NCBI GenBank assembly: GCA_903915625.1
Contig: CAIWTN010000228.1
Location: 1-32,180 of the forward strand
Origin: an uncultured Pseudomonadota bacterium
Lineage (GTDB): Bacteria > Bdellovibrionota_B > Oligoflexia > Oligoflexales > CAIYRB01
DNA length: 32,180 nt
Direction: 5' to 3'
The notes beneath the pieces were generated by a model. It saw only the letters and a list, made by a program, of their open reading frames with translations, searched no databases and was not told the origin of the DNA. This document shows positions 2,941-31,630 of the stretch, piece by piece (the stretch's first letter is position 1; every line of letters begins with the position of its first letter). A program made the translations under genes and the position numbers.

Positions 2941-2967
2941 CAGCCCCTCCACCTGACCGGAAAATAT

Positions 2968-2996
2968 TTTACTCGGGCACGCGCACTTGTTATCTT
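2968..2996 (+). promoter_or_regulatory. promoter of the histone gene
   Basis: TTTACT (2968-2973), a 17-base spacer and an extended -10 (TG at 2988-2989, TATCTT at 2991-2996) lie just upstream of the histone-fold ORF. Predicted transcription would begin near 3003, giving a leader of about 45 nt. The hexamers match four of six consensus bases each; the TG extension strengthens the call. Confidence 0.4.
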
Positions 2997-3046
2997 CGGT
3001 GCAAGAATAGTTCCGGATTTTGACTCACATGGCGAAGGAGCAGATT

Positions 3047-3232
3047 ATGAGCGAAGTGCTGGTCGTAGCGAGCAAGGTCAAAAAGATGATCAAAGACAAA
3101 TCCGGAATGAACACCTCGGCCTCGGTTATGGAGGCGCTGACCAAGTTGATTGAAAGCGAGTGCCTGAAGGCTATTGAGCGTGCCGGCGCAGAAAACCGCA
3201 AAACGGTGATGGACCGTGACTTTACGCCCTAA
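3047..3232 (+). CDS. bacterial histone (single histone-fold protein)
   Basis: This small basic protein of 61 residues has one histone fold. In order: an alpha1-like SEVLVVASKVKKMIKDK (about 2-18), a loop SGMNTSA, a long alpha2 (about 26-50), then NRKTVMDRDF, the classic L2 / alpha3 signature (compare RKTI/V-x2-x-D in archaeal histones). The alpha3 helix is cut short, as in Bdellovibrio bacteriovorus Bd0055, which from memory is nearly collinear with it (MAEVLVV.SKVKK.IK...MNTSA). That protein is an abundant nucleoid histone. I chose the ATG at 3047 because AAGGAG (3035-3040) sits six bases upstream; an upstream ATG at 3020 would swallow the ribosome site. The gene stands alone with its own promoter, divergent from the glycosyltransferase and convergent with the glycosidase. 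A role in chromosome packaging is inferred from the family. Confidence 0.9.
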   Translation: MSEVLVVASKVKKMIKDKSGMNTSASVMEALTKLIESECLKAIERAGAENRKTVMDRDFTP

Positions 3233-3253: not shown

Positions 3254-4681
3254 CTAGCGCGCCTTCTGGACTTCAATCTGCTCCCTGATTGCTGTCATGG
3301 CAGGATCTTCGAAGCCAAAGCTGAAATAGTCTGAATGGTAAGGCGTACCGTTGCTACGATTAGGTATCGCCTGCCATATCATCGTGCCAGCGTAACCTGC
3401 TTTGTTGGCGGCCTTGTAGGTTTCAGACAGCCACTTGGTACGGTTGCTATAGTAGCCATTAGATTTCACCGCGTTCATAAAGCCGCTGTTATCGGTTGAT
3501 ACGTAACTACTGAATCCCACTTCTTCTAAAACTATCGGTTTACCTGCTGCATGCACGGCCCGCGCTCGGTCATCAATAACATTTGGAACGAACCAACTAT
3601 AAAACTCTGATTGTGGAATGCCCCAGTTATCCAGCAAAAAGTGTACTGTGGCAAAAGACACGTTAGGAAGTTTAATATTGCGATCAAAGTCTATGCCCTT
3701 TGATCCATCATGCAGCCAACCATGCCTACTGCGGTCACCTGAAACTCGGTAGCCCTCTTCACCCGTAGCAATCAGGTGGTTCGTATCTATGCTACGGACG
3801 TGGGACGTAATCGCTGACAACCATTTGTAGACTAAATCGCCTGGCCTACCACTTACTAAGGACTTACAGCTTGCGTCAATATTGCCAGAGGTTTCGTAGT
3901 TATCGGTAGTGTGCGGCTCATTGGCGACTTCAATCGCCATGATCGCTGGATCGTTTTTGTACTGGAGTCCGTTCGCTGTATTCACCCGGTTCAGTATCTT
4001 AGCTATATAATTTTGGTAGGCGGAAATTACCTTGGGATTGCAGTAAAACGCTTGTTTGCTCTCGCCCGGACTCCCATAGACTCGCGTCCACCAGCCCATG
4101 CCGCAGTATGAGGGTTCAAAGTTCACGAGAGGCAAAATAACTTTTAGCCCTGCATTACCAGCCTCTGCAATCACACGATCGAGATAACTCAGCGCGTCTT
4201 CGTTGTACCTGCCATCACGTTCCAAGATCGGAGGATTCACAATGGCAGGCTCAGGGACGCCAGGCTCGCGCCAGTCACTGGGCGTGTCGCAGGAAAACCC
4301 CCAGAAGCGGATGACTCGCATCCCAGAGTCGGCGGTCTTCTTCATGATATCTTTGACATCCGCGTCGCTGTAGCGCACGTCACGCACACCGAGACGATAG
4401 AAGTTTGTCCCCTGAAAGGCAAAAGGACGTCCGTCTAGAACGAATCCAGTCCCGTTCACTTGCACAAACGCCTGCGAAGTCGGCGTCGCTGCAACGGACT
4501 GTGAAGGTCCTGATCCAGGCCCAGAAGACGGCGAAGGCTTTGGCCCCTTACCAACCTGAATTAAATCATCGATATGGCGTCCGCCGTCGCGATCAGTTCT
4601 ACAGGCGAACAAACCGAAGCATACGATCATCAAAACTCGGCAGTGGGAACTCAGAAGCATCAGAATACTCCGCGCAAGCAT
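3254..4681 (-). CDS. GH5-like (endo-beta-mannanase-type) glycoside hydrolase lipoprotein
   Basis: Length is 475 residues. A hydrophobic leader ends in LFAC, with lipidated Cys27, followed by a Pro/Gly/Ser linker (about 45-68) and a clan GH-A catalytic domain. The domain opens with FVLDGRPFAFQGTNFYRL, typical of GH5 mannanases and relatives. The acid/base Glu is E255 in AIEVANEPH, and the nucleophile Glu is most likely E387 in PIVLEEVGFSS. RFWGFS (about 125-130) and ATVHFLLDNWG (about 344-354) fit the substrate-site strands. Cysteines at 131, 193 and 214 may form disulfides. The expected role is cell-surface or periplasmic hydrolysis of a beta-linked plant or algal polysaccharide; mannan is the best guess from family resemblance, not proof. 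It ends 21 bases from the convergent histone gene. Confidence 0.85.
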   Translation of the reverse strand: MLARSILMLLSSHCRVLMIVCFGLFACRTDRDGGRHIDDLIQVGKGPKPSPSSGPGSGPSQSVAATPTSQAFVQVNGTGFVLDGRPFAFQGTNFYRLGVRDVRYSDADVKDIMKKTADSGMRVIRFWGFSCDTPSDWREPGVPEPAIVNPPILERDGRYNEDALSYLDRVIAEAGNAGLKVILPLVNFEPSYCGMGWWTRVYGSPGESKQAFYCNPKVISAYQNYIAKILNRVNTANGLQYKNDPAIMAIEVANEPHTTDNYETSGNIDASCKSLVSGRPGDLVYKWLSAITSHVRSIDTNHLIATGEEGYRVSGDRSRHGWLHDGSKGIDFDRNIKLPNVSFATVHFLLDNWGIPQSEFYSWFVPNVIDDRARAVHAAGKPIVLEEVGFSSYVSTDNSGFMNAVKSNGYYSNRTKWLSETYKAANKAGYAGTMIWQAIPNRSNGTPYHSDYFSFGFEDPAMTAIREQIEVQKAR

Positions 4682-14373: not shown

Positions 14374-15846
14374 ATGCCAGTGATGTGCAAGTACAGTAAG
14401 TGCTTTGAGGGCCATGGACCGATCCTGGCCTTTGCTGCCAATGCTCCGGATCAGACCGGACATTTTCGAAAATTTTATCTCATCATCGATGCTAATCAAC
14501 AGTCCTTTGGCATCAGCTCCGCACCCGAGCGCTTCGAAGAAGTGAAATCAACTGGCTCCGTGGTTGCCATCATGCGTAAACACGCAAAAAGCGGCACTAT
14601 AGCCGGAATCTTTCGAGAGTCCGAAACAGGTGATTATTGGTTACCAATGTTCACCAGCCGTGGTGAACACCCCGATTTTTGGTTACAGCTGGCTGTGGCC
14701 TCACCGCCAGAGCTGCGCTTTATCGATGCCTCCGGCACCGCCCTAGTGCGCAAAAGCTCTCAAGGAACATACACAAAGCGCTGGCAGTTAAATAAACCGC
14801 TTCCAACGTACCCAGTTCAGGTTAATGCGTTGATGGAGGACATTTCTGCGAGTTTGATCGAGGCATCGAGCCCGGCTGAGGCCGCTCTTGGTCAGGAAAA
14901 CGCACTGACAGCCACTAGCGCTGACACATCCACATCCACATCCACTAACCCCGCCCTTCTCCCCGACTATCAGCGCAGCGCCCGTGACCGCATTGCGCGG
15001 CGACTAAAAACCGTGCGCAAGGCCATGACAAAGGCACAGAACTTAAGCACCCACAATACCGCAGCACTGGCAGCAGAACACGAAGCTCAACTCCTGCAAA
15101 ATTTCCTCAGTCGCGTTCTACCTGGACAGGATTGCCTCGAAATAAGCGCCGAAGAAAGTGGATTCGCCAGTCCACTGATCATAGAATTAAATCCTGATCG
15201 GACACCGGGACAAAATCTAAGTGATTTATTTACCCGCGCTAAAAAAGCCAGACGCGGAGCTTCGCTTTTAGAGGAGCAAGTTGCCGAGGCCGAAGCTGAG
15301 GTTCAGTCTCTCACGCTGGATCTTGAAAGTTTGCGCGCCGGCACATTAAACGTAGCCGCAGTGAACGAAATTCTGCGACGCCATCAGTTGCAGACTTCGA
15401 AAGGTGGTGGAGTTGCACCCGCTGCCGGCGAAAAAGTACCTTACCGCATATTTGAATGGCGTCCTGTGGGCGCACCCCCAAAGTCTGCCGCTATACGCTT
15501 ACTGGTTGGCAAGAGTGCCGCCGACAGCGATGAACTTTGCCGCCAAGCTAAGGGCAATGACCTTTGGTTGCACGTCGTCGGCTCAACCGGAAGTCACGTC
15601 ATAATACCGGCTCGGGATCTTAAGGCACCGCCTCTGCCAGGCCTGATCAGAACTGCTGCCATCTTAGCTGTGCATTTTTCTAAATTACGCGCGGATCAAA
15701 GTGCCGAAGTTTATCTGACGAGGCGCCAAAATATAAAAAAACGTAAGGGTATGGCCCCTGGACTATGGCAAGTTAATCAGGCTGAAACTTTATTCTGCCG
15801 CTACGAGACTGAAGAGCTTCAGAGCGTCTTAGTCACCGGCCTTTAG
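14374..15846 (+). CDS. NFACT-family protein (RqcH-like), divergent N-terminus
   Basis: Length is 490 residues. The C-terminal NFACT-R domain is plain: IRLLVGKSAADSDELCRQ, then AKGNDLWLHVVGSTGSHVIIP (Asp396 to His400 region), AAILAVHFSKLRADQSAEVYLT, and the RRQNIKKRKGMAPGLWQV block. A central coiled coil (about 285-320; LLEEQVAEAEAEVQSLTLDLESL) and helices at about 200-235 match the arms of the family. In Bacillus, RqcH binds stalled 50S subunits and directs C-terminal alanine tailing. Here the N-terminal domain is shorter (family members are about 550-580 residues). It starts near the FxxxLRKH block (SVVAIMRKHAKSGTIAGI, about 62-79), and I do not see the usual opening segment. It is the last gene of the mtgA operon. 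Its 3' end overlaps the convergent gene by 14 bases. Confidence 0.82.
   Translation: MPVMCKYSKCFEGHGPILAFAANAPDQTGHFRKFYLIIDANQQSFGISSAPERFEEVKSTGSVVAIMRKHAKSGTIAGIFRESETGDYWLPMFTSRGEHPDFWLQLAVASPPELRFIDASGTALVRKSSQGTYTKRWQLNKPLPTYPVQVNALMEDISASLIEASSPAEAALGQENALTATSADTSTSTSTNPALLPDYQRSARDRIARRLKTVRKAMTKAQNLSTHNTAALAAEHEAQLLQNFLSRVLPGQDCLEISAEESGFASPLIIELNPDRTPGQNLSDLFTRAKKARRGASLLEEQVAEAEAEVQSLTLDLESLRAGTLNVAAVNEILRRHQLQTSKGGGVAPAAGEKVPYRIFEWRPVGAPPKSAAIRLLVGKSAADSDELCRQAKGNDLWLHVVGSTGSHVIIPARDLKAPPLPGLIRTAAILAVHFSKLRADQSAEVYLTRRQNIKKRKGMAPGLWQVNQAETLFCRYETEELQSVLVTGL
14925..14945 (+). repeat. in-frame CACATC hexanucleotide repeat
   Basis: Three and a half copies of CACATC sit inside the NFACT gene and encode alternating Thr and Ser in a linker between the N-terminal domain and the helical arm. 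The unit is a multiple of three, so copy-number change would alter linker length without shifting the frame. Confidence 0.7.
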
Positions 15847-28504: not shown

Positions 28505-28544
28505 TCACCCTCTTTGTGGTAAATCCCACTTTTCAAGAGGGTGA
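28505..28544 (+). promoter_or_regulatory. 5' leader hairpin covering the kinase ribosome-binding site
   Basis: TCACCCTCTT (28505-28514) pairs perfectly with AAGAGGGTGA (28535-28544), which contains the AGAGGG ribosome site of the hybrid kinase (ATG at 28550). An inner GTGG/CCAC stem (28516-28519 with 28526-28529) lies in the loop. No T-tract follows, so it is not an intrinsic terminator. The design repeats that seen at 27301-27350. Confidence 0.5.
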
Positions 28545-28549
28545 ACTTG

Positions 28550-31500
28550 ATGGAACAACTCCATTCGACATCCGATAACCGCGTAAGCGCCTTAAAAACA
28601 CTTCAAGGTCGGTTTGCTGCGCTACAGACAGATATTGATTTTTCATCTGCTAAAAAAGACGCTCTCGAGCTGGCTGGATCCTCCCTCGCCATTGCAGCAG
28701 AGTTACTAAAAGAGCTCGAATCTGCCGAGCAGCGACACCTAGATCTAACTGCAGCTCTTCCCCAGATGCTATGGACAACGCGGCCAGACGGTTTCCATAT
28801 TTATTTCAATCAACGTTGGGTGGAATATACCGGCCGTACCCTAGAAGAAAGTTACGGCTTCGGCTGGCTCGAGGCCTTTCACCCCGACGACCGCGTTCGC
28901 ACTTTAGAACGCTGGCAACAAGCAACAGCTTCCGGTGAAGCCTATGAGATTGAATATCGACTGGTCCGAGCAGACGGTGGCTACGGATGGGTGCTTGGAC
29001 GGGCCATGCCACTGCGCGATGCATCCGGCAAAATTTCTCAATGGTTTGGCAGCTGCACGGATATAGACAGTCAAAAAAAGGCAGAAGAACTTGCAGCATC
29101 GCAGGCTCGCGAGTTGGCCGCCGCCAACATTCAGCTGACGCAGGCAGAGGCATTAAAAGGCGAGTTTTTTTCGAACGTCTCGCATGAACTCAGAACGCCA
29201 TTGACTCTACTTATCGCCCCCTTGGAATCGTTACTATCAGGAGACTACGGCAATATTTCAGCCAGCCAACGCCCCATGTTAGATGTTATCCATAATAACG
29301 CCATTCGCCTTCTCCAGATGGTGACTGGGCTACTTGACTTCTCAAAACTTGGTGCTAAAAAATTCATTCCTGCACCCGAGCCGACCAATGTTATAGCTTT
29401 AACTCAAAGTATTACTGCTGACTTTATGCCGCTGATCACGGACTGCGGTGTCACCTACGAATTTTTCAGCAACCAAGATAAAATTTGGGCTAACATCGAT
29501 CGCTACCTTTGGGAACGGATCGTTTTCAACCTACTGTCAAACGCGATAAAGTTTACGCCCAAAGGCGGCCACATCACGGTAAGCGTCAGCATTCACAATG
29601 AGCACCTGGTGCTTAAAGTAAAGGACACTGGCATTGGCATCGCTGAGCACAATATGCCGCTACTATTCCACAAATTCAGGCAAATCGAAAGTGCTTCCAC
29701 CCGACGTTTTGAAGGCACTGGTCTGGGGCTTTCCCTCGTTAAGGAATTTGCCCAACTTTTAAATGGCGACGTTTCAGTCAAAAGCACGATCGGCAAGGGC
29801 AGTATCTTCACTGTTGGCTGCGACGTGATGCGTGCGAACCCCGCCGACGCGGCACCCATGATAAATGGCAATATATTAAGAAACCAAACACTTGTTCCAG
29901 ATCATAACTTAGAGTTACAACAGACTGATGCAACTGGCAGGCACAGCACATCTAAGGTTTTAATTGTCGAAGATAATATCGAGCTTGCGCGTTACATCGT
30001 GTCTCAGCTCCGATCAATCTGCGAAACGCGATTGGCGAACGATGGGGACGAAGCACTCGCTGCGATAAATACATGGAAGCCAGATTTAATTCTATCTGAT
30101 GTCATGATGCCAAAGCGCGACGGACTAAGTCTCTGCCGCGAAGTCAAAGCCAACCCCAATACTGCAAAAATCCCGGTAATATTGCTTACCGCTTTGACGC
30201 ATCGGGACGCACTTTTACAAGGCTGGCAGGCCGGTGCTGACGAATATCTATTCAAACCATTCCACCCTAGGGAACTAATCGCACGCGTAGAAACCATGCT
30301 CGATCTGTCGCTCGAGCGGCAAAGGTCAGAAGATACGCTGAGACTCGCCAACCTAGATCTCGAGCGAAAAGTCACTGAGCGCACTGCTTCTTTGAAGGAA
30401 GCTAACGAAATACTCAAACAAAGCGAAACAGCCGAACGTGCCGCACGCCTCGAAGCTGAGTATTCAGCGCGTATAAAAGACGAGTTTTTAATCACGCTCT
30501 CGCACGAGTTGCGTACCCCGCTGGTTCCGATTATAGGATGGATCGGATTGATCAACAGTGATGTTTTAGACAGCACAGGCACCGCAGAAGCATTAAAGAC
30601 CATTGAAAGAAGTGCGCGCTACGAACTGCAATTGATCGAGGATCTTCTCGATACCTCGCGGATTATTTCCGGAAAGCTGATTATCGAATTTAACCCAATC
30701 GAATTGCTTGAGCCTTTGAAAGCGGCCTTAGAAACTGTTCGATTGACGGCAGAAGCCAAAAACATAACTCTTAACGTTTTTATGCCCCCAGCCTCATTAG
30801 GCGTTATCAGGGGAGAGACCAGGCGGCTTCAGCAAGTCATCTGGAACCTTCTAGGTAATGCAATAAAATTTACTCCCAAGGGTGGCAGGATCGACGTCCG
30901 ACTCACCAGCGATGATAAACACGCAGTAATAGAAATTGCCGATAATGGAATCGGGATAAGCTCCGATTTTCTGCCGCATGTTTTCGAAAGATTTCGCCAA
31001 GCCGACAGCTCGACCACGCGTCAATTCGGTGGGCTTGGCCTGGGATTGGCACTTGCTCGCCAATTAGTCGAAGCTCATGGCGGCCGAATAAGTGTTGAGA
31101 GTCCAGGCGTAGGACTGGGCAGTACATTCCGCATTCAGCTCCCCCTGTCGTTGAGCCAGTCAATTCAGCGGACAGAGAGTCCGATCAATGACCAAACACG
31201 CAAAACTAAAAACGCAATCAAAGAAACCAAGCTTGCCGGTCTGAAGATCTTAGTGGTTGATGATTCGCCAGAGGATCGACACTACCTAACGGCTTTATTG
31301 ACTAGCCAGGGTGCCGTTGTCACGGCAGCAATGACTGCTGCAGAAGCACTGGTCCTAACTCAACACGATATGCCGGACGTGCTGGTCAGCGATATAGGTA
31401 TGCCAGACAAGAGCGGGTATGAATTTATTCGTGAAATTCGCGAGATGAAAAGCGACAGGAAAAATTTACCAGCATTAGCTCTGACCGCATATGGCAGTGT

Positions 31501-31630
31501 CAATGACCGAGAGCGAGCGATGGCCGCCGGCTTTCAACTATACTTAACCAAGCCATCTAATTCCGAGCAATTAATCGGAGCTATTTATGACCTTGCTCAC
31601 CTACAAAATTTCGAGCGTCCACAAGTCTGA
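28550..31630 (+). CDS. hybrid sensor histidine kinase, PAS-HK-REC-HK-REC
   Basis: Length is 1026 residues from the ATG at 28550 (AGAGGG eight bases upstream; a GTG at 28541 overlaps that site). Order: a short helix; PAS/PAC (about 62-180; LPQMLWTTRPDGFHIYFNQRWVEYTG); HisKA 1 with His212 in SHELRTPLTLL; HATPase 1 ending GTGLGLSLV (about 389); receiver 1 with Asp517 in LILSDVMMP and a later Lys in LFKPF; a coiled coil; HisKA 2 with His652 in SHELRTPLVPI; HATPase 2 with GLGLGLALARQLVEAHGG (about 827); receiver 2 with Asp948 in VLVSDIGMP and LTKPS. Both kinase cores and both receivers keep their phospho-acceptors. No membrane helix is seen, so it senses a cytosolic signal through PAS. No response-regulator gene lies next to it. 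Confidence 0.93.
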   Translation: MEQLHSTSDNRVSALKTLQGRFAALQTDIDFSSAKKDALELAGSSLAIAAELLKELESAEQRHLDLTAALPQMLWTTRPDGFHIYFNQRWVEYTGRTLEESYGFGWLEAFHPDDRVRTLERWQQATASGEAYEIEYRLVRADGGYGWVLGRAMPLRDASGKISQWFGSCTDIDSQKKAEELAASQARELAAANIQLTQAEALKGEFFSNVSHELRTPLTLLIAPLESLLSGDYGNISASQRPMLDVIHNNAIRLLQMVTGLLDFSKLGAKKFIPAPEPTNVIALTQSITADFMPLITDCGVTYEFFSNQDKIWANIDRYLWERIVFNLLSNAIKFTPKGGHITVSVSIHNEHLVLKVKDTGIGIAEHNMPLLFHKFRQIESASTRRFEGTGLGLSLVKEFAQLLNGDVSVKSTIGKGSIFTVGCDVMRANPADAAPMINGNILRNQTLVPDHNLELQQTDATGRHSTSKVLIVEDNIELARYIVSQLRSICETRLANDGDEALAAINTWKPDLILSDVMMPKRDGLSLCREVKANPNTAKIPVILLTALTHRDALLQGWQAGADEYLFKPFHPRELIARVETMLDLSLERQRSEDTLRLANLDLERKVTERTASLKEANEILKQSETAERAARLEAEYSARIKDEFLITLSHELRTPLVPIIGWIGLINSDVLDSTGTAEALKTIERSARYELQLIEDLLDTSRIISGKLIIEFNPIELLEPLKAALETVRLTAEAKNITLNVFMPPASLGVIRGETRRLQQVIWNLLGNAIKFTPKGGRIDVRLTSDDKHAVIEIADNGIGISSDFLPHVFERFRQADSSTTRQFGGLGLGLALARQLVEAHGGRISVESPGVGLGSTFRIQLPLSLSQSIQRTESPINDQTRKTKNAIKETKLAGLKILVVDDSPEDRHYLTALLTSQGAVVTAAMTAAEALVLTQHDMPDVLVSDIGMPDKSGYEFIREIREMKSDRKNLPALALTAYGSVNDRERAMAAGFQLYLTKPSNSEQLIGAIYDLAHLQNFERPQV

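Follow-up and report, generated by a model that had tools for sequence, protein, structure and literature searches.

The analyzed stretch of 32,180 nucleotides (henceforth the window) is contig CAIWTN010000228.1 of a metagenome-assembled Oligoflexales genome (GCA_903915625.1). On its forward strand, positions 3047–3232 including the stop codon encode a 61-residue protein, MSEVLVVASKVKKMIKDKSGMNTSASVMEALTKLIESECLKAIERAGAENRKTVMDRDFTP, which we assign to the bacterial-dimer (HBb-like) class of α3 histones on the basis of phmmer, AlphaFold2 and Foldseek analyses. The gene stands alone between a divergently oriented glycosyltransferase gene and a convergent gene for a GH5-like hydrolase. The latter (3254–4681, reverse strand; Cellulase, PF00150) belongs to a family with 4–6 matches per genome in the genus. 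This gene order is retained only in the nearest relative, locus L003 of genome G005, while other genus members have different neighbors; with such flanks and such limited synteny, a functional neighborhood was rejected. Further along the window, an NFACT-type protein of the RqcH/FbpA family is encoded at 14374–15846 (forward strand); its N-terminal domain seems missing or divergent, since the NFACT N-terminal model aligns with it only from profile position 307 onward. A large protein at 28541–31630 (forward strand) reads, from its translation alone, like a hybrid sensor kinase that combines receiver domains with two kinase modules.

Gene start, selection and promoter

The ribosome-binding site AAGGAG (3035–3040, forward strand) lies 6 nt before the ATG and is conserved across the genus as AGGAG or GGAG. 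Alternative starts at 3029 and 3020 were rejected: the in-frame upstream extension MAKEQI occurs in L003 and is absent from the rest of the genus, which places the start at 3047. Comparison with the L003 histone gene gave dN 0.021 and dS 0.235 (dN/dS ~0.09), i.e., synonymous change greatly exceeds non-synonymous change and the gene is under purifying selection. The frame is short and the curated domain models all score below their cut-offs, as might be expected of a chance or decayed reading frame, but homology to HBb far above chance (1e-16), the dN/dS value, intact frames in relatives and the conserved start and ribosome site led us to reject this reading, which we consider vanishingly improbable.

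The intergenic region contains a putative extended −10 promoter (2968–2996, forward strand) consisting of TTTACT (2968–2973), a 17-nt spacer and TATCTT (2991–2996), with TGT preceding the −10 hexamer (TG at 2988–2989). Hexamers, spacer and TG are thus all present as originally described, and the hexamers agree with the consensus at 8/12 positions. A promoter tool scan with a cut-off of 9/12 lists other sites and omits this one because its score falls under that cut-off. In a post hoc test based on dinucleotide shuffling of the 94-bp intergenic sequence, only 0.75% of the shuffles contained a site of the same class with TGn. Both hexamers are identical in L003, and the stretch from the −10 element to the ATG agrees with it at all 56 positions. 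Identity to L003 amounts to 95.7% over the intergenic region (2953–3046), as against 89.1% in the neighboring glycosyltransferase gene and 66.7% in the gap on the downstream side, a pattern that supports a conserved promoter and leader, albeit as thin evidence from two closely related genomes. The corresponding region of the remaining genus members is not alignable to the window. On these grounds, the proposed promoter is plausible.

Homology and predicted fold

A phmmer search of the PDB returned the Bdellovibrio histone HBb/Bd0055 (8FVX, 8CMP) with E = 1e-16 in a gapless alignment of residues 1–59, 36 of which are identical; the near-collinearity with Bd0055 noted in the preliminary description holds. 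The next matches, HTkC (9F2C) and HLp (9QT0), lie near 1e-3 (HLp, 2.4e-3). In the HMM search proposed as a check at the outset, the histone models of Pfam (PF00808) and NCBIfam matched below their cut-offs (PF00808, 17.4 bits against a gathering cut-off of 21.4), as is expected for this divergent histone class. The anticipated RKTV signature is present as RKTVMDRD, comprising R51, K52, T53, V54 and D58.

A single-chain AlphaFold2 prediction from a 38-row alignment (mean pLDDT 87.1) yielded helices at residues 3–19 and 26–48 and a short turn at 56–58 by DSSP, in agreement with the complete histone fold with shortened α3 that had been proposed, here seen in a monomer model. Combining DSSP on this model, residue mapping and the published HBb contacts (PMC11317129), α1 (residues 3–19; 3053–3103) carries the contact set S9-K10, K12 and K16. 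From the model and residue mapping, loop L1 (20–25; 3104–3121) includes the contacts N22-T23-S24-A25, and the dimerization helix α2 (26–48; 3122–3190) retains L31 and I35. Loop L2 (49–55; 3191–3211) contains R51-K52-T53-V54, and the one-turn α3 (56–58; 3212–3220) provides R57 and D58 of the RD clamp; all these parts lie on the forward strand. The model thus has the truncated α3 and shortened α2 of bacterial dimers, a class in which α3 spans 3–4 residues. Foldseek returned five matches with E < 0.001, every one an HBb chain, with moderate TM-scores of the model to HBb (0.73–0.78); HTkC, HLp and then eukaryotic and archaeal histones followed. The phmmer match, the AlphaFold2 model, the Foldseek comparison and the mapped residues all group the protein with HBb/Bd0055, in support of the preliminary interpretation, and it is confirmed as a real bacterial histone of the bacterial-dimer α3 class, a class defined by sequence clustering.

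Putative DNA contacts and comparison with other histone classes

HBb contacts DNA through T8, S9, K10, K12, K16, N22, T23, S24, A25, K52, T53 and R57, and its L2 is locked by an R51–D58 clamp (PMC11317129). All of these contacts are kept in the window protein except T8, replaced by Ala as in most sampled family rows. The RKTxxxxD pattern of bacterial dimers, i.e., the R51/D58 clamp with K52 and T53, is complete, as are the α1 SK motif and lysines (S9, K10, K12, K16). HBb structures (PDB 8FVX, 8FW7, 8CMP, 9EZZ, 9F0E) share with the window protein the fold with a short α2 and one-turn α3, the RKTV motif, the clamp and nearly all DNA contacts. The two differ by A8 for T8, E38 for L38, R45 for S45 and E49 for D49, and in the last turn, where the window protein has D56 and F59. 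L38 lies at the HBb dimer interface; as its position is occupied by Glu in the window protein, an exchange seen in 26 of the 89 rows aligned, dimer stability cannot be taken for granted.

We compared these features with other histone architectures. Nucleosomal (HMf-type) histones differ in that their α3 spans ten residues rather than one turn, and the archaeal tetramer histidine corresponds to A48 in the window protein, likewise Ala in HBb. The face-to-face α3 histones HLp of Leptospira perolatii (9QT0) and HTkC (9F2C) share the histone fold and truncated α3 but are distant in sequence (E ~1e-3). Conceivably, the protein might act unlike HBb, for instance as a DNA-wrapping face-to-face tetramer like Leptospira HLp: R45 matches a conserved arginine (R41 of D4GZE0; PMC11390915) that is absent from HBb (S45), and HLp does match, more weakly, in both sequence and fold. 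The second tetramer residue, however, an asparagine two positions before the RxT arginine, is Glu49 in the window protein, and the match to HBb is far better (1e-16 versus 2.4e-3), making a mechanism of this kind very unlikely. With the HMfB-type and face-to-face signatures absent or incomplete at A48 and E49, a dimeric DNA bender is the best inference and the mechanism to be expected.

ZZ histones and doublets approach the window protein in their endings but differ in domain composition: the former possess a Cys-rich domain at the N-terminus and the latter a further histone domain, both lacking in this 61-residue singlet, the start of which is set by the ribosome site and comparison with relatives. 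In two Bdellovibrionales MAGs (G057, G056), L111 and L112 combine an N-terminal Cys-rich ZZ-like domain with a C-terminal histone domain ending RKTVMDRDF and RKTVLDRDF, respectively. Both genomes additionally encode Bd0055-type singlets (L114, L113), and G056 also an HLp-like third histone (L116). Bacteriovoracaceae loci such as L026, L037, L046, L058 and L066 encode doublets; their in-frame preceding histone domain ends grktvmgkdfn, and the C-terminal half, e.g., of L026, reads RKTVMDRDF as in the window protein.

Phylogeny and distribution

Closest in sequence are histones from Oligoflexales and Chlamydiota MAGs that end RKTVMDRDF. These singlets (L003–L025) share 62–95% identity over the alignment, length and ending with the window protein, and we found no characterized member among them. 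The KTVMDRDF stretch was one of the patterns used to find loci, and its near-invariance among them is therefore partly ascertainment. Several Chlamydiota MAG singlets (L007, L011–L013 and others) resemble the window protein more closely than Bd0055 does, with identities of up to 75%; the Bd0055 clade ends in RKTVMARDI. In a 60-column tree, Bd0055 and two Bdellovibrio-type sequences form their own supported clade with the window protein outside, and Oligoflexales and Chlamydiota rows are intermixed. AU tests on these columns rejected neither a union of Bd0055 with the group that contains the window protein (p = 0.457) nor a tree keeping the 12 Oligoflexales-type rows under test together and apart from Chlamydiota (p = 0.217). 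Because the window protein falls outside the Bd0055 clade and joining is nonetheless allowed, we regard the designation HBb-like as secure, whereas 60 columns do not suffice to call the protein a strict orthologue of Bd0055. Histone transfer between phyla may have occurred. That the RKTVMDRDF singlets of Oligoflexales and Chlamydiota, with the charged E38 in the dimer helix, might constitute a subgroup apart from Bd0055, partly spread by transfer between these lineages, which are unrelated to each other, and assembling or binding DNA in a manner unlike HBb, appears doubtful. The class has been reported from Bdellovibrionota, Chlamydiota, Planctomycetota, Myxococcota and others (PMC11390915, PMC10627809).

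Five of the six genus members possess the histone gene. Across the phylum it is present in only 16 of 58 genomes, with weak matches in two of them, and many genomes of the order are without it. The 38-row histone profile, which detects Bd0055-type, ZZ and HLp-like proteins in other genomes, found no second histone in this one. A mobile origin was considered and rejected, as no match emerged in phage or plasmid collections. One viral contig (L124, IMGVR_UViG_3300014502_000004) contains a distant histone-like match with 33% identity over residues 4–59.

Proposed function

In Bdellovibrio, HBb is among the major proteins of the nucleoid, and its deletion was not achieved (PMC10627809). The unusual DNA-binding mode ascribed to it in the preliminary description is contested: in contrast to HBb only ensheathing straight DNA (PMC10627809), subsequent work observed DNA bending by HBb (PMC11317129). 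By analogy, the window protein, predicted to fold as α1-L1-α2-L2-short α3, would most likely form a homodimer via antiparallel α2 helices. The L1–L2 edge of this dimer (N22, T23, S24, A25, K52, T53, R57) may grip the phosphate backbone at minor grooves, with a second grip by the N-terminal turn of α1 (S9, K10, plus K12 and K16). Binding would be without sequence specificity, and DNA would be bent and compacted as by HBb. Expression is probably driven by the gene's own promoter, and the product would serve as a nucleoid protein alongside HU/IHF; the high expression and nucleoid role proposed initially are inferred from homology.

A histone-fold protein could alternatively bind DNA at low abundance, at particular loci or in a regulatory capacity rather than as a global nucleoid component. 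The same genome encodes four HU/IHF-family proteins, the histone is patchy in the phylum, and the one genus member without a detectable copy is 93% complete, all of which would be in line with such a restricted role. Against it stand the conserved backbone-contact residues, the single stand-alone gene with its conserved upstream region, and the abundance of HBb homologues in the species studied in the literature, and we judge it an unlikely alternative. Sequence homology, the predicted monomer fold, conserved contacts, purifying selection and a stand-alone gene have been observed here, and dimerization, DNA bending, abundance and a nucleoid role would follow by analogy. Overall, we hold with considerable confidence that the gene encodes an HBb-like bacterial dimer histone, which would act by the proposed bending and nucleoid mechanism.

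Histones occur in 1.86% of bacterial genomes (PMC10627809), in keeping with the rarity noted at the outset, and good characterization is limited to HBb and HLp. The gene adds a member to an already described family and is not new in kind, leaving the overall picture of bacterial histones likewise unchanged in kind. A single-copy, selected HBb-like histone beside HU/IHF in an Oligoflexales-type genome widens the range for comparing histone-based nucleoids, and because some genomes of the phylum have the gene and others lack it, natural plus/minus pairs are available.
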